A model generated the notes under the pieces. The model did not search any database. It saw only the letters and a program-made list of their open reading frames with translations, and was not told the DNA's origin. Positions 2,713-58,262 of a stretch of 64,000 nucleotides of DNA are shown piece after piece. The stretch spans positions 37,221,956 to 37,285,955 of the forward strand of contig CM049318.1 of NCBI GenBank assembly GCA_026874595.1, in the 5' to 3' direction. A program made the position numbers and the translations under genes. Origin of the DNA: Sipunculus nudus. Taxonomy: Eukaryota > Annelida > Sipuncula > Golfingiida > Sipunculidae. Each line of letters begins with the position of its first letter. Position 1 is the first letter of the stretch.

Positions 2713-2819
2713 AATAATTTGCATTGGCATACCAGTAAGTAATTCCCATAAGTTACAAAAACACAGTACTGAAAAAGGTATTTAAGATGAAGTTCTAAGA
2801 AGACTATGATTCATTCCAG

Positions 2820-5800
2820 GAGACTATCAGTTTGCTGAGTGAGAGTAATGACACTGATGAAGAGAAGAAAAAGAAAACTAGCAGCCTGAAGACTAATGGG
2901 TCCAGATCCCTCAGGTCCAAGAAACCCTCAGTGCAGTTTGCTGACCAAGTGCAAGATGACAAACCAGTTGTTATATCCTCTGAGAGCCCAGAGGCTGAAG
3001 ATGGGAAGACAAAAATCACAGAAAATAACATGGAAAGGAATAATATTGAAAGTAAGAGAAGGAATCGTAAACAAGTTAATGATTCTTCCAAAGAATCTAA
3101 CACTAATGTGAACAATTCAAAATCAAAAGATGAAGAAGATTCGTCAAAAGTCACAAACTCCCAGGAACCCCAGCCATCCTCATCCCCTGCCAAACAAAAG
3201 GGGGCCTCCATGAAAAGGTCAGGGTCATTTACAAGGTCAAGGTCACCCAGAAAGGGCCGGAGTGAAGCCAAAGATGGAAGCATTGTTAAATTTTTGATAA
3301 CTTCACAAAAGGAGGTTTCTGGTTCTGGATCAAGTGAGGAAGCATTGGAGAGCTCTGCAAAAACCATTGAGGAGACTCAACCCTTCACCCCTCCTGATAA
3401 TAAAAACAAAATTGACGCATCAGTGATTGTGGAGGACACAGAACTATTTTCCCCTTCACAGAGAGAAAAAATGGAACCTGGCAATGAAAGTATAGAAGAA
3501 ACACCAGAAAGAAAACCAGAGGAAACAGAGGTGCAAAGAAATGTCACTGAAACATGCTCTGAACTTTCAAAAGAACTGTTTCGATCAAAAGCCAAGGAAA
3601 GTGATGTAAAAGAAACAGAAGTAACAGAAGCCCAAGAAAAAATCCCAAAGATCACCAAATCTGATGAAATATTATCAGCCTCTCTCGAAAATGTGGATCG
3701 CAAAACTGATGGGGCTTTGCCAGTGGCAGAAATGTCAACACCAACTAAAGAGAGAATAGAACAACCAAGGCCATTTGGTACACCTGTGCTGAAGCTGCAT
3801 AAGTTGACGAAAGAAGAAATTGCACACTATAGTCCTTCAAAAGGAACATCATCAAAGCAGGAAGCATCTGATATAATTAGCCAATCAGATAATTGTAATA
3901 TGTCGACAGCAACTGTGGAAGATAAAACACCCAAAGGCCGGCGTCTAAGACGTAGGCCAAGTTTAATCAAACTGAAGGAATCCAGTAAAACGCAGCAGCC
4001 AATCAGCATGGGACTAGATGTTGATGACCAGGATGACGGAATCATCCCAAGCTCACAAGGATCATCGTTGAGTTGTCCATCTCCCTCGCATCTCTTGCAG
4101 CAGCTTGATGATGGTGGACCAGCAGCAAGCAGTAAATCACAGGAAACTGAGCCTGAAGAGATGGAGGTGGACAACCTTGATTCCAGCAGTAGCTTAATCA
4201 AAAGAGACCATGCAGTGGATGATGTTGATGCGATGCTTATGCAGTCCCCCACCATAAAACCTTTGTCTCAAACATCAGTCTCTCCAAGTTCTCCTGCTGT
4301 CTGCTTGAACACAAATACGCTTGAATTTTCAGATACTCCCAGAAGACGCAGCATACGCAAAAAACAGAGGAAGAGATGTGATTGTAAACTAGGAGACCCA
4401 GATCATAATTGTTTAGATGTGAATTTCAGTAGTGACAAGACTGATTCCCAAAACACTGAAACTGAGGAAGATGAAACCAACACACAATCTCAGAATACTA
4501 TTGAAAGTTATAAACCTGCTGGGTCAACATTGGAGAGTAATTCTGAAACCCAAGCAGTTGTTACTAAAACAAGACCAAGGAGATCACTTTCCAGACAGCA
4601 GCAACAAGATAGGCCAGAAACATCTAAGAGTTCGCTCAAAGAGAACAAGAGGGGGAGGAAGTCTGTGCCTGAGGATGGTGAGCTGGAAAAAGAGAGTCAG
4701 GACCAGGATGTGATCATTGGAGCAATGGAGAACAAGACTGATGCCCCAGAGTGTGTGATTATTGATAGTGATAATGATGAACCTCTGGCTGCAATTGCTG
4801 ATGATAAAACAGAAACAAGGTTAACTGAAAGAGAGAAGGAGACAAACAAAAGTAGGACAATACAAAAGACTGGAAGGAAGGGAAAATCTGATAGTCAGAT
4901 TGATTCCAAAACCATTCCTACTCCAGCTTCAGATCAGTCTGGCATTACCTCACAAAAAGAGGGTACCCAGACTGCCAAAAAAGAAAAATCTAAAGGAAAG
5001 GATATATCTGAAGAAGATAAAGTAACCCAATCAAGTGGATCTAGAAAATTAAGAAACAAAGTAGAAACTACATCAATTAGCAAGAAAAACACCAATACTG
5101 GCAAAGACACAAATTCTGGAGATGTACGCAATAAACTGGAAAATGCTTCTGCCAAATCCTCTTCCAGTCAAATCACAGATGAAAATAGAAAGAGTTTGAA
5201 AAAAGTAGATTATAAAAATAAAGGTACAGTAGAAGTTAAATCCCTTCAGGAAAAGGAATCTGAAAATAAGCAAACAAATACAGAAGTTGGTATGTCTTGT
5301 GATCAGTCTTCAAGTGAGAAAAATAATAAAGTTGAATCTGCTTCTGTATCAGAGAATAAGAAAGATAAGAGTCCAGAACAGCCTAAGCGCAAACGTGGGA
5401 GACCCAAAAAACATTCAACTGATAATAAGCAATTGACAAAGAAAGAAAAGGAGACGGAGGACTCAGAAGTCCAGAAGAAAGATGGGTCTTCTTTGGAAAG
5501 CCAACAATATGAAGTGACACTAGGTTTGCCACATTCCAGTTTGTCTGTTCAAGAAGAGAGGCAGATGGAATCTGAAGTTTCTAAAACAGGAGAAGCTAAA
5601 TATTCAAGTCAGAATAATAATCAAGTTGAATCCTCTTCTGTACCAGAGAATAAAAAAATAGGGGCGCAAGCACAGCCCAAGAGCAAACGTGGGAGACCCA
5701 AAAAACAAGCATCTGAAAGCAAACAAGTAACAAAGAGAGAAAAAGAGTCCGAGGACACAGAAGTCCAGAAGAAAGACATTTCTTCTTTGGAAAACTATGA

Positions 5801-7190
5801 TTCTGACTTGACACCAAGTCTGCCACATTCCAGCCCATCTGTCAAAGAAGAAGGGCAGGTGGATGCTGAAATTTCTAAAACAGAAGTAGCAGAAAGTCAA
5901 GAGAATGAAGAAGACAGTAAATCAAAACATGGCAGGCCAAAAAAGACAAAAGTTGAAAATAAACAGGAGAACAAAAAAGGTTATGAAGAAGAAGGTAGGA
6001 AGCAAGAAGATGCACAAGAAGAGGAAAAACAAAAGGAGGAAGAAGAGAAGGATGAGAAAGGAGAAGAAGATGATCAGGAGTTAGATAGTTCTGCATTTGA
6101 ACGTAGTGTTGAAGACAGTGACTCAGAGGATGATGTTCCTCTGTTGTTGTTACACAGACCTGAAATTGAAGAAGAAGCATTGAAGGACAAAAACCCCTCA
6201 AACTCATCTGAAGAAGTTGTTAAAAAGGAAGCTGAAGAAGTGAAACCATCGGAGAACAATGTTAATGCAGAAATGGATATGGATTCTTGTGCAGACATGT
6301 TTGACTCAATGAAAACTTCAACGCCTCTAAAGCCTATGCCTTCTGTTGCAGCCAAGCCAAAAGATCAAGTAACGCAGCTACCCAAAGGTAGGAAGATCAT
6401 CCTTGCCAGACGGAGGAACAGTTCAGGTTCTCCCATGAGTGGGAGGCTTAGGTCTGGTAGGATGCAGCTACGGACAAAGGCTGTGAACAAGTCTTTTGAT
6501 TCTACATTGTCACTGAAATCTGTACGTAATAAAGAATGTGAGAATAAGATCAACCAAGTGGTAGTAGAAAAAGACGGCAAAGCTGAGCTTGAGGAACAGG
6601 CTAAAATGGAGGTAGATAGTCAAGATATTGATGCAGAGAAAGAAGTTGAAAAATGCCTAGATGAACACCCTGTAGAAGAACAAGCAAAACTTAACAGTGA
6701 AATTAATACTGGAAAGACTGTGACAGACTCTGAAACTGAAAAACCTGCACCCATCGCACAAGAAAGCGAGAACACAAATGAAAGTAGTAGGAGTCCGGAA
6801 ACTCCAAAATCAGCCAAAAAATACCTGTCAAGAGCAGCAGCCATACTGCAGCAAGCAAAAACGTACCGTGCTGTAAAGCCAGCAGCAGTGTCAGCCCAAA
6901 CCACTGCCAGCCAGTATAAAGCAATGGCCAAAAAACTTGCAAAGTACCACCTTGTATCGCCTCACACTTCTCGAGCCAGAGCCATTTTGGAAAAATCTCT
7001 GAAAATTGGTAACAAATCACCAGAGAAATCATCAGGTCCGTTGGTGTTTGCTAAACCAGTCAGCCCTAAGTTCCGTCCCGTGCACATTCCCCGAGTCTAC
7101 TCCCCATCAGCTTCACCGAGTGCAGGGATCCTGAAGAGGAGGCGGCTCAGTGGTCTCATGGAAACCAGCTCCCCATCACCACCCAATAAG
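2820..7190 (+). CDS. RIF1: RIF1 large exon (disordered region, AT-hooks, GILK motif)
   Basis: This 4,371-nt exon (1,457 codons, phase 0 at both ends) follows an acceptor ending ATTCATTCCAG. The frame is closed upstream by TAA at 2796, which leaves this as the best acceptor, although its pyrimidine tract is weak. The donor is AAG|GTAGGT at 7191. The middle holds a 98-residue tandem duplication (period 294 nt), each copy carrying an AT-hook-like KRGRPKK (codons from 5391 and 5685). A shorter third copy has KHGRPKK (from 5925). An acidic Glu-rich stretch follows at about 5980-6080. Near the end is GILKR (7125-7139), the SILK-type PP1-docking motif. AT-hooks are not a standard RIF1 feature, so DNA contact here is inferred. 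Confidence 0.93.
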
Positions 7191-10100
7191 GTAGGTCAGG
7201 CATCACAGTATGTGCCTGTCGTAAGATACTTAAAAATCATCTGATTTGCAAAATCAGAGTCCTTAAGAAACATGAGATTTCAGGTTTTCAAAAAAAAATA
7301 TGTTGGAAGAAATATTCATCATACAGATATACAGTGAAACCTGTGTTATAAGACCACCCAAAGACAGGTCGGTTATAACTAATGTGAATGCTTTCAGTTC
7401 ACTCAAGGGTGATCTTAGACAGGTGGTTTTTCAGACAGGTTCCACTGTACATAAAAGAGATAGGTCTGAGAAGGGGGGGGGGGATGCCAAGGTTTGGGAA
7501 AATGTGTCATTTCTGATGCCAGAATTTCTAGTTATAACACGGCAAGTTGCTCCCTTTATCATGGAAAATGCATTTCCTAGCACGTACTATCATAAAATTG
7601 CAATGCAGGGTGACTTGGTGTTTTATTGGTTGAATTATAAGTTTGCTGACTTGTTCAGTCATTTTATGTCAGTTCATTCTAATATTTCCAGCAAAGAAGA
7701 GTATCATTTGCAGAAGCCATTCAAGTTTGTGAAGCCACAACCTCGAGGCCTGTTAGTCGTTGTCTGCACCTGCCACGGACGGTCACGCCCTCTCCTCTGA
7801 CTGTCAGCAGTGACGACCAGGTTTCTGAGGTAAGAGGAGAAATAGATGATGAACATTTAGAAGCTGTTAATAGTGTACAGTCTAGCGGCCCTTGCAAATG
7901 GAAGTCTTTAGATTTGTGGACAACTGGAAATCTGCATTGTAAAAAAATGCAACCCTCTGCCATTTTGGGGGGGGGGGGGGGGAGGGGCCTATAGTTGGAT
8001 GCTTCCAACCCATGTTCACTTATACAGCCCATTTTCCTGTGTTTTTTGGTGCATAAGTGACTGTACATTTGTGAATATTCCTTGATGTTCCTGAATCCGG
8101 ATCATGCCCAGATCAATTAAAATTTTATTGTTTCTTCATATGCCCATTCCCAAAATGCCCTGAAAATTATGAGATTCCATTCATGGTTGCACGAGTTATT
8201 TTGTGAACAAACACACATAAACAGGGACAAATGCGTACACTCATGGCAGAGGCTAAAAGTCAGGTGACTAAATGAAATCAACCATTGAAACCTCAGTAAG
8301 TGGTCAGCAGATTTTGACCAGTGAAAATGTGTCAATGCACATATTTGTATAATGTTAGATCTTTTATCAGACTTTTAACTGAAGTTTATGTAAGTAGATC
8401 ATCTGTCATAAAAAAAGTTATATGATTATATCCTGTTCATTAACTAGTTAATAAAGAAATAGTATTCTAATTTGCAATTTCATAATAATGTGGCCTTGTT
8501 TTATCCAAACCAAGTTTTTTGATTTGGAAAATCAAAATTTTTTAAAAAGAAAAAAACCTTTCTGTTTTGCAATATAGAAGGAGAATGAGAAGACCAATGT
8601 GCCAACTGAGGAAGCAGTAACAGATGACATGGAAATGGTAAGAATGGTCCCATTGACGTATCCCATTTGTTCAAAGCATGGACTAAAAGTAGTGTATAAA
8701 ATTTATACAAGGTGCTCATAAACTGTTACATATCTGAGATAAAAATTTCCAGTTGATGACTGAAACAAAGTCGTCAGTACATCCAGCTCAACAATCTGAG
8801 TATCATATAAAATAAGATTTAAAATGTCTCCCACCAAAGTAGTACATACATGAGCCTGCTTATAAATATACCACAAAGGCTACACCACAAAAATACAGTC
8901 GAAATAATGAAAAGTAACAAAAATCAAATTGCATTATGGTGTTCCGAACAAAGTGATGGTCACACTGGATGACACCATTAACTTGTCCATAAAATCATTG
9001 CATTCATACTATACATTGTAGTGCAAATTTAAACAGCTGCTGATTCCTTTGTCCCTTTCCTGAGGAATCGGCTATTTTATATCAGACACTTATTTGTCCA
9101 ATAGCAACCGGCAGAAGTGTACTTTTGCTGGAATGTAAGATGTAAAACAGAATCTTACTTTTGAAAATGTTAGATTATCAATATCGTGTATCCTAAGAAC
9201 CTGCTTACTTCAAGTGTACATGCAACATATAGATACATTCCAATGGATATTTTAATTTTTTTAAAAAAATAACCCAGGATATAAAGAGACATCTTCTGCG
9301 AATACTTTTTATATGCCTGTCTATAATCCAATATATGACTTTATATCGGGGTCTGGACAGCGGAAAGGTAAAACGCCCAGCCCTCTTCGCTGACGACCCG
9401 GGTTCAATCCCAGGTGTTGTGATGAGAATGGGTTGTTGTGGGCTGTCCAAGGTCAGTGGTTCTCTCCAGGTTCTCCAGCTTCCTCCACATTTCTTACTAC
9501 ACTGGCATATTTGTATCTACTGTGAACTCGCCTTTAAGTCTTCTGGTTGAGGGAGCCAGTGTGGACATAGCTAAGAATATGTGCTGTGACCTTCTCAAGC
9601 ACCAACTTCACTTCAATAATAATAAAAAAATTGACTTTATATCATGATGTAGGTTGACCAGTGTATTAATACATAATTTTGTCATGACCTTGTTTTAATT
9701 GTACCCAGGTTGAGAAGGAGACAGAGTTGGAGCCGAGTCTGACACCAAGCCTGCTGTCACTAGGAACCTACAGCCAGACACCAGAATCTCAGCTGGACTG
9801 TCAGGAACCTATTTGTCCTGAACTCATAGAATGTGACTGGTCCGTCACGGAGATCCTGCCCCAACTCACCACATCCACTTGGTAAATACTGCTTTATTTA
9901 TTAGGTTGCCTTTCTACCTTAAGATATAATCCAGGGTGTTCAGATGGGAGTTAAATGTTTAACAATGAGTTCCTAATTTTTATCTCCTTTCCAATATAAA
10001 GGACCCACATGGGTCTGCATGCTATAATTAACACTCAGTTGGTATTGTATATATGTGGGTTTGGTGGAAGCTGTTGGGTTCATACAGATCCTTAAAACCA

Positions 10101-17911: not shown

Positions 17912-18231
17912 GGCCTTCCTCTCTCTTTCTTGAAGTGAAGTTGGTGCCCGAGCACATAGCCAAAGCTATGTTCGCACTGGCTCCCTCGACCAGAAGTTTG
18001 ACAGTTCGAGTCTGTGATGGAAGGTCCAAGGCGAGTTGACAGTAGATATAGTAACGCCAGTGTAGTGAGAGAGGTGATGAAGCCGGAGAACCCGGAGAGA
18101 ACCACCGACCTTGGACGAGCCACTACAACCCATTCTCATACCCACACCAGGGATCGAACCCGGGTCGCCAGCGAAGAAGGCCGAGCCTTCTTTTACCACT
18201 CAATTGTCTAGGCCCCCCGGCCTTCCTCTCT
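17912..18231 (-). mobile_element. tRNA-derived SINE with perfect 13-bp TSD
   Basis: GGCCTTCCTCTCT occurs at 17,912-17,924 and 18,219-18,231 and flanks a 294-bp body. On the minus strand the body has a tRNA-like head (B box GGTTCGATCCC near 18,150) and the same core as the copy at 9348 (GAGAATGGGTTGT, GGGTTCTCCGGCTTC). Reading frames here are by-products. Confidence 0.88.
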
Positions 18232-41389: not shown

Positions 41390-41826
41390 AGTTACTGAGA
41401 CAAATTGCTCAAGGGAAAAGGCTGGGCCGATCCGGGATTCGAACCCATAACGGTGGCGCACAAGTCCGGCGTACAAACCGCTTCGCCAGCAAAGCTAGCT
41501 TCACTAGCGAGGCCTGGGCAACTAAGATTTACCGTCATCCCGTAACACACCCCCTCTAAAGAGCGTTCTGCTATTAGAACAAGACTAATTATCCAAGGAG
41601 TCACACTTTGGTGAGCTTATTCCCTGGGCCACAAAGTTAACCGTCACGTTAGACGAGCCCCCATTTTGTGACGAAGAGAAATTGTTGAGGGGAAAATCCT
41701 GGGCCGATCCCGGAGTCGAACCATGCAGGTCGGTGGCGTACAAGTCCGGCGTACCAACCGCTTCGCTAGCAAAGCAAGCTTCACTAGCGAGACAGTTCGG
41801 TTCGCTGTTATGTGCACCCCGTAACA
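41390..41826 (-). mobile_element. TRIM retrotransposon with tRNA-like module in LTRs (copy M)
   Basis: Read on the minus strand: 5' LTR 41,826-41,667 (starts TGTTACGGGGTG, ends CGTCACA), three bases, primer site TGGGGGCTCGTC (41,663-41,652), about 110-bp internal part, polypurine AGAGGGGG, then 3' LTR 41,547-41,390 (starts TGTTACGGGATG). The primer site is complementary to the 3' end of tRNA-Pro. Each LTR holds an A box (TAGCGAAGCGG; TGGCGAAGCGG) and a perfect B box (GGTTCGACTCC; GGTTCGAATCC) about 42 bp apart. ATATA flanks it on both sides within a TA repeat. It is non-coding, so it depends on proteins from another element. Confidence 0.88.
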
Positions 41827-45073: not shown

Positions 45074-45224
45074 AATAGGCAGTCGGACCGATGCACTGTC
45101 GGACTATGGCTCCTATATAGATGGAAGATATTAAGCATTGCAACTTTAATGTCAAGGTGATATAATCCGTTAATACCAATTAAGGATGTTAAGAAAACAA
45201 TTGTGATATACCCCATAACCCCGT

Positions 45225-45657
45225 TGTTACTGGGTGACATAAAAGCGGACCAAACTGTCTCGCTAGTGAAGCTTGCTTTGCTAGCGAAGCGGTTGGTACT
45301 CCGGACTTGCTCCCACCGTTATGGGTTCGAATCCCGGATCGGCCCAATGTTTTCCCCTGAGCGATTTGTCTTCCTAACAAAATGGGGGCTCTTCCAACGT
45401 GTCGGTAAATCTTGTGGCCCAGGGAATAAGCTCACCAAAGTGTGGCTCCTGGATTAATTAGTCTTGTTCTGATAGCAGAACGCTCTTAAGAGGGGTTGTC
45501 TTACGGGGTGACATAAAAGCGGACCGAACTGTCTCTCTCGCTAGTGAAGCTTGCTTTGCTAGTGAAGCGGTTGGTACTGCGGACTTGTGAGCCACCGTTA
45601 TGGGTTCGAATTCCGGATCGGCCCATGCTTTCCCCTGAGCAATTTTACTTCGTAACA
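45225..45657 (+). mobile_element. TRIM retrotransposon with tRNA-like module in LTRs (copy P)
   Basis: A perfect 5-bp duplication CCCGT (45,220-45,224 and 45,658-45,662) flanks the element. 5' LTR 45,225-45,379 (TGTTAC to TAACA), spacer AAA, primer site TGGGGGCTCTTC (45,383-45,394; one mismatch to the tRNA-Pro form), polypurine AAGAGGGG (45,488-45,495), 3' LTR 45,497-45,657 (to CGTAACA). A boxes: TAGCGAAGCGG (45,282) and TAGTGAAGCGG (45,560). B boxes: GGTTCGAATCC (45,324) and GGTTCGAATTC (45,603). The A-B spacing of 42-43 equals that of a tRNA gene. The element has no coding capacity. It is closely related to copy M but in the opposite orientation. Confidence 0.9.
45383..45394 (+). promoter_or_regulatory. 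tRNA-Pro-type primer-binding site
   Basis: TGGGGGCTCTTC lies three bases after the 5' LTR. In copy M it is TGGGGGCTCGTC, the exact complement of the last 12 bases of tRNA-Pro as known from tRNA-Pro-primed retroelements. Confidence 0.85.
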
Positions 45658-45662
45658 CCCGT

Positions 45663-58189: not shown

Positions 58190-58262
58190 CTTCACGGCTC
58201 ACTTAGTAGCGTGTAAGGCTCCTAGTCCAGAGATTGTAGGTTCGATTCCCGATTCAGGCGAC
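58190..58262 (+). pseudogene. tRNA-like fragment (SINE head or tRNA pseudogene)
   Basis: A perfect B box GGTTCGATTCC (58,239-58,249) lies downstream of a degenerate A box (TTAGTAGCGTGTAAGG). The T-stem does not pair well, so this is not a working tRNA gene. Confidence 0.5.

Follow-up and report, generated by a model that had tools for sequence, protein, structure and literature searches.

Two copies of one non-coding TRIM lie in the 64-kb window (i.e., the whole stretch of DNA analyzed here), and their LTRs carry boxes like those of tRNA genes. The question raised by this locus is whether such an LTR holds a promoter for RNA polymerase III (Pol III), and whether this promoter would be used instead of Pol II or in addition to it. 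A preliminary description of the locus regarded a tRNA-like promoter in an animal TRIM as a new solution to transcription, which had been anticipated by the account of Helenus, i.e., TRIMs whose LTRs include sequence derived from a tRNA (Kojima, 2024, PMC10886601). What is new here is a coding element in which an LTR of this kind lies co-linear with a PBS, a leader, and the start of gag. The TRIM alone is one more Helenus-type family, and the shared LTR matters more.

Structure of the two elements

The first copy, T1 (positions 45225-45657, plus strand), is 433 bp long, and the second, T2 (41391-41826, minus strand), is 436 bp long. Both have the order LTR, internal domain, LTR, with a PBS and a PPT. 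In T1, a 5′ LTR of 155 bp (45225-45379; TGTTAC...TAACA) and a 3′ LTR of 161 bp (45497-45657), each with a TG start and a TAACA end, enclose a non-coding internal domain of 117 bp (45380-45496). The 5′ LTR is followed by AAA and the PBS TGGGGGCTC (45383-45391), and the 3′ LTR is preceded by the PPT AAGAGGGG (45488-45495). A stretch of 17 nt at the PBS, TGGGGGCTCGTCCGGGA, is kept in other copies; we take it to be of the tRNA-Pro type. The entire unit is flanked by the repeat CCCGT on the left (45220-45224) and on the right (45658-45662).

Within the T1 5′ LTR, all features lie on the plus strand. A TATA-like CATAAAA is located in U3 (45238-45244), and an inverted repeat (45260-45287) that folds as a hairpin of 12-13 bp overlaps the A box (TAGCGAAGCGG, 45282-45292). 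The B box (GGTTCGAATCC) is found at 45324-45334, and the tRNA-like unit is directly followed on its 3′ side by TTTT (45350-45353), a possible Pol III stop. In the 3′ LTR, the A box (TAGTGAAGCGG) and the B box occupy 45560-45570 and 45603-45613, respectively.

T2 is surrounded by a (TA)n tract. On the minus strand, its 5′ LTR (41667-41826) has the A box at 41768-41758 and the B box at 41722-41712, its internal domain spans 41548-41666, and its 3′ LTR (41391-41547) has the A box at 41488-41478 and the B box at 41445-41435. The two LTRs differ by 9.1% in T1 and by 21.9% in T2, the latter value being inflated by a 25-nt patch of internal domain that replaces the normal U3 of the T2 3′ LTR (score of 33, with no shuffle out of 500 scoring above 20; patch region 41391-41550, minus strand). 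This patch probably arose from a template switch during reverse transcription.

Two more B-box matches, one of them with one mismatch, were found elsewhere in the window at 18150-18160 (minus strand) and 58239-58249 (plus strand); both are surrounded by sequence that we take to resemble tRNA-derived SINEs. The window also has an open frame of 1481 aa (2799-7244, plus strand) with no Pfam match at E ≤ 0.01, and a Pfam search with two ORFs of the window gave no match.

tRNA-like boxes in the LTRs

The boxes that had been described for the four LTRs were confirmed. The A box TRGYNNARNNG is present in every LTR of T1 and T2 (4/4), and the exact B box GGTTCGANTCC is present in three of them, with one change in the T1 3′ LTR (GGTTCGAATTC). 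Two further points on tRNA-like geometry held in part. The spacing between the boxes, given previously as 42-43, was measured start to start as 42, 43, 46, and 43; it applies to three of the four LTRs and fails in the T2 5′ LTR because of a 3-bp insertion there. The D-arm pairing GCG/CGC, said to survive, is complete in both T2 LTRs and incomplete in both T1 LTRs, where the partner positions read CTC (5′ LTR) and CTG (3′ LTR). The G that T1 lacks at this partner is the state seen across the family (89 of 93 LTRs).

For the tRNA likeness of the LTRs beyond the boxes, we compared 69 five-prime LTRs with 345 shuffled sequences using relaxed settings of ARAGORN. At the 80% setting, tRNA-like structures were found in 25/69 LTRs vs. 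13/345 shuffles; the corresponding numbers were 53/69 vs. 68/345 at 70% and 3/69 vs. 0/345 at 90%. At full stringency, ARAGORN found a tRNA in 0/69 of these LTRs, and with default settings it found none in the whole window and 39 copies. A low-threshold Rfam scan of T1 and T2 (E ≤ 10) returned no tRNA, nor did a scan at E ≤ 1 that covered 20 of these copies and gave one 12-bit match to tmRNA far below the gathering score. RNA folds were predicted for a single LTR from either element; both are a hairpin plus a long stem, with no cloverleaf. A functional or foldable tRNA gene is ruled out by ARAGORN (default and full stringency) and Rfam, and a 5S/Cassandra identity is ruled out since the Rfam scans had no 5S match. 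The tRNA-derived character of the LTR rests on the boxes and the relaxed tRNA scan, not on the Rfam tRNA model. The tRNA likeness of these LTRs is real, though partial, and a tRNA-like A/B-box promoter in the LTRs of an animal TRIM is real as well.

Distribution of the family in the host genome

We searched the 153 contigs of the host assembly, 1.43 Gb in total, with sequence patterns, using the reversed pattern as the control. The exact B box followed after 25-55 nt by AACANNNTGG was found at 853 places vs. 0 in the control, and 99 of the 100 matches listed for this pattern of B box, LTR end, and PBS resemble the T1/T2 family. The LTR end plus PBS occurs at 734 places and the full 17-nt PBS at 614 places, each vs. 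0 in the control. Scans of a viral contig collection and a genome contig collection gave 0 matches.

TSDs were examined at 41 loci, namely, T1, T2, and 39 others retrieved for their similarity to T1. The flanking repeat has exactly 4 bp at 23 loci, 5 bp at one (T1), 6 bp at one, and at least 8 bp at four, all of which are TA repeats; none was found at the other 12. ATAT/TATA tracts hold 11 of the 29 insertions that have a flanking repeat.

Tandem arrays of LTR-internal units, with a period of ~274 bp and 3-5 LTRs, are present in eight of 39 regions (L040-L047), which were fetched as apparent arrays. In four of these eight (L042, L044, L045, and L046), the array as a whole is bounded by a 4-bp repeat and LTR-type ends. 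Variants are common at LTR positions 56, 95, and 125, and every combination of them was seen across the copies, which suggests recombination among subfamilies.

Conservation of the boxes

The preliminary description asked whether the A and B boxes are better conserved than other parts of the LTR, and held that equal decay of boxes and flanks in young copies would speak against a Pol III role. Since dead copies are expected to decay equally after insertion, equal decay cannot separate the hypotheses. Our test contrasts differences within a copy (the LTR pair, i.e., decay) with differences between copies. A first version used 93 T1-like LTRs, with one truncated LTR of L043 omitted; this set no longer served as the main test, since similarity to T1 had guided the choice of its copies. 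The main test used a box-blind set picked only by LTR end and PBS, with 90 distinct junctions from contigs C1 and C2 out of the 734 places. After omission of 21 junctions that have a partial LTR match or none, this set has 69 full 5′ LTRs, 53 of which belong to copies with both LTRs, for 122 LTRs in total. The A box and GGTTC are kept together in 35/69 of these 5′ LTRs, and the exact B box is found in 34/69.

The between/within ratios in the box-blind set were 1.07 for U3, 1.15 for the hairpin, 1.02 for the A box, 1.22 for the A-B spacer, 1.59 for the B box, 1.25 for the region after it, 1.45 for LTR positions 130-146, 1.76 for the three bases before TTTT, and 1.08 for TTTT. The B-box ratio comes largely from its free N position (excess of 0.315). 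An excess above 0.1 was found at 17 LTR sites, one of which (108) is a constrained position of the A box, B box, or TTTT. In permutations, p for a lower between-minus-within excess was 0.14 for the A box, 0.55 for the B box, 0.31 for TTTT, and 0.19 for all three; for a lower raw divergence of the three together, it was 0.07. The stronger conservation of the boxes is therefore a trend that does not reach significance. The A box and TTTT deviate in the direction that fits constraint; the B box, taken by itself, gives no such sign.

Signals for the two polymerases

Signals for transcription were counted after a length filter that left 92 LTRs and 51 internal domains. Of the signals expected for Pol II, CATAAA is present in 78/92 LTRs, AATAAA or ATTAAA in only 1/92 LTRs and 1/51 internal domains, and AATAAG, which may act as a weak poly(A) signal, in 43/51 internal domains. 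On the side of Pol III, TTTT follows the B box on its 3′ side in 67 of the 76 T1-like LTRs that have a B core and in 35 of the 46 LTRs with GGTTC in the box-blind set. Such a T-run in the 5′ LTR would end many Pol III transcripts early, and a full transcript needs read-through. A second TTTT directly 5′ of the A box, present in ~44/92 LTRs (LTR position 56 is T in 45/93), is awkward for Pol III. The internal domains have TTTT in 7/51 copies, a mild depletion compared with shuffles (mean of 15.7 and minimum of 7).

A coding element with the same kind of LTR

Through the 17-nt PBS, we found that Helenus-type LTRs also precede another internal region, which has the PBS, a leader of ~170 nt, and a gag-like start. 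The pattern of this coding junction occurs at 13 places in the genome vs. 0 in the control. Four of the 13 were fetched (L170, L171, L172, and L173), and a Helenus-type LTR, complete or in part, was found in all four, with 75-84% identity to the T1 LTR among the three full ones. The A box, B box, and T-run are present in L170, L171, and L173; the LTR of L172 is truncated on its 5′ side, and its A box is therefore not scorable. A partly deleted LTR before the coding leader in another copy (L110) gave no match in a search for paired A and B boxes. Elsewhere in the genome, the best matches to the L170 LTR are 92% identical (among 48 matches listed), and two of the closest, C2:72136609 and C2:40063046, are LTR end plus PBS places.

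A query of 452 bases with the LTR, PBS, leader, and gag start was co-linear at 40/40 scored places (40 of 3883 first-look candidates), a proportion biased toward coding copies having this LTR because the query contained it. Co-linearity extends from base 15 or earlier to base 393 or later, and all 452 bases are covered at 29 of the 40 places. One of these places is the query itself; the other 39 have 84-90% identity.

In the next 2 kb of one coding copy (L174), a 294-aa piece has a SCAN domain (Pfam, E = 1.3e-11; 44.6 bits, cutoff 27) and, by eye, a zinc-knuckle-like end. A tRNA-like LTR is not known to be a feature of the Gmr1-like Gypsy group, which is compared with this gag below. A piece with a protease-like DTG lies further 3′; its likeness to a protease was not borne out by searches of Pfam and PDB. 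The 2 kb past the L174 gag start contain no pol call, LTR, TRIM LTR, or TRIM internal domain, and with the LTR of another coding copy as the query, no partner downstream of it was found among the 48 matches listed. L169 continues the coding element for ~294 bases and has no pol recognized by eye after that.

The two internal regions are also found in other contexts. L168 (C1:5907850-5909350) has the coding leader and gag behind a different upstream context of 60 nt. Its gag is 82-87% identical over two main stretches, and Pfam and PDB searches gave no accepted match (zf-CCHC at E = 0.002, under the cutoff). Likewise, at L007:1324-1403, the TRIM internal domain lies behind a different 60-nt upstream context. 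These different contexts make LTR exchange between families possible. In L007, a coding unit that is truncated lies next to units of the TRIM. A chimeric copy, L101 (C1:32510966), has a Helenus-type LTR and the coding leader, followed by the TRIM internal domain and LTR; the junction between leader and internal domain, TTAACRTGRC, is matched exactly at a single place genome-wide. We infer that the coding copies with this LTR are the autonomous partner of the TRIM.

Possible mechanism and alternative explanations

The reading that we favor, which in our judgment stands about evenly between right and wrong, is that T1 and T2 represent a Helenus-type TRIM family whose LTR acts as a dual promoter, and that the TRIM is mobilized by the proteins of the coding element. 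Because the same kind of LTR precedes the coding element, one LTR may serve Pol II and possibly, in the TRIM, Pol III; use of Pol III in addition to Pol II, as envisaged in the preliminary description, gains indirect support from the same observation. Both modes of transcription are predictions and would work as follows. Pol II, perhaps from CATAAAA at LTR positions 14-20, would produce the mRNA of the coding element. The A and B boxes would recruit Pol III, with a start ~10-20 nt 5′ of the A box; the enzyme would read past TTTT in the 5′ LTR, a weak stop, and terminate at TTTT of the 3′ LTR. The tRNA-like unit would thereby become the repeated R region of a short TRIM. The proteins of the coding element would then package this RNA, reverse-transcribe it with a tRNA-Pro primer, and integrate it. 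Read-through at the first T-run and mobilization in trans are presumed steps of this model. Besides the awkward T-runs, points that weigh against it are the lack of significantly stronger conservation of the boxes, AATAAG in the internal domains, the fold without a cloverleaf, the L110 LTR with no A-B match, and the coding gag behind another upstream context in L168.

The main rival is an LTR used by Pol II only. In this view, a SINE or tRNA once inserted into the LTR of the coding element and left the tRNA-like stretch as a passenger, and both elements are transcribed by Pol II. We regard this as possible but rather doubtful. It would explain an LTR of this kind in front of a coding region of several kb, where Pol III is not expected according to the argument in Kojima (2024, PMC10886601). 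It is also in line with the TATA-like CATAAA in most LTRs (78/92), with AATAAG in most internal domains (43/51), and with boxes that are not significantly more conserved than the remainder of the LTR. However, AATAAA or ATTAAA is found in just one of the 92 LTRs, and the A box has no subfamily variation beyond decay (ratio of 1.02), with one of the 17 excess sites in the A box, B box, or TTTT, which is a trend in the opposite direction. Moreover, the A box, B box, and T-run are kept in the three junction-fetched coding copies with a full-length LTR.

In an improbable alternative, TFIIIC binds the boxes but no productive transcription follows, and their role is that of an insulator or of integration/chromatin signals. 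The partial tRNA likeness with no foldable tRNA agrees with such a role, but the T-run right behind the tRNA-like unit argues for a transcription unit. Two tRNA-derived SINEs around a spacer, or chance matches to the boxes, are scarcely credible explanations, even though the further B-box matches of the window (18150 and 58239) lie in SINE-like sequence. The pair of SINEs is rejected because the LTR-type ends, PBS, and PPT are accompanied by TSDs outside the LTR pair, where the flanking repeat bounds the whole LTR-internal-LTR unit. Chance is ruled out by the three exact A-B pairs in the window vs. 0 in each of 100 dinucleotide shuffles, and by the 853 genome places vs. 0 in the reversed control.

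Extending the dual-promoter reading to the partner, we tentatively propose, with somewhat less than even confidence, that the coding Ty3/Gypsy-type element has the tRNA-like Pol III unit in its own LTRs, common to its TRIM derivatives, such that one LTR would drive the helper through Pol II and the parasite through Pol III. If this is true, Helenus would arise by internal deletion of a coding element, not by SINE insertion into a TRIM. The shared LTR also points to the partner of an animal Helenus by physical linkage, and it turns the question of whether two polymerases can read one LTR into a testable one.

Comparison with known systems

Among the titles listed in searches of the literature, only Kojima (2024) bore on Helenus or on coding elements with tRNA-like LTRs, next to two general surveys. 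Among other TRIMs, Cassandra of plants is similar to the family described here in having a Pol III promoter in the LTRs, terminators, and tandem arrays, but its promoter is derived from 5S rRNA rather than tRNA (PMC7215508; PMC10886601). According to Kojima (2024, PMC10886601), the coding partner of Cassandra is not known. The biv-TRIM of bivalves also has tandem forms (Satovic, 2019, PMC6934838). As characterized in that report, however, it has TDRs of 202-218 bp, an internal region of 77-80 bp, and no clear PBS, whereas T1 has LTRs of 155-161 bp, an internal domain of ~117 bp, and a PBS. On the coding side, the SCAN-type gag of the partner is a likeness to Gmr1-like Gypsy elements, in which SCAN has been tied to the capsid (PMC3406341).

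Helenus remains the closest known system, and by its defining features, T1 and T2 are of this known kind. Helenus has been reported from six animal phyla (including bivalves, fish, and wasps), fungi, and one plant, with 51 families in pteriomorph bivalves alone (Kojima, 2024, PMC10886601). The family described here shares with Helenus as defined there a length below 1000 bp, two LTRs with A and B boxes, the lack of coding capacity, a PBS to a tRNA 3′ end, and a PPT. In that account, Helenus elements are 311-1263 bp long, most families are predicted to be unable to encode a tRNA, the primers in bivalves include tRNA-Pro, and the TSD in animals is 4 bp (PMC10886601). The length of our elements, their PBS type, and the absence of a foldable tRNA agree with bivalve Helenus, and a 4-bp TSD as in animal Helenus was found at 23/41 loci, unlike the 5-bp flanking repeat of T1 itself.

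The difference of most interest concerns the helper. Kojima (2024, PMC10886601) linked Helenus to partners by PBS similarity, and section 4.2 of that paper judged a long LTR stretch common to Helenus and its autonomous partner to be unlikely, with processivity as the argument against Pol III on a long coding element. The shared LTR runs against this expectation of a helper with a different LTR (PMC10886601). Here, in a departure from what was expected of Helenus rather than from its definition (PMC10886601), an LTR of the same kind as in the TRIM is also joined to a coding element at 40/40 scored places, a count obtained with a query that included the LTR.
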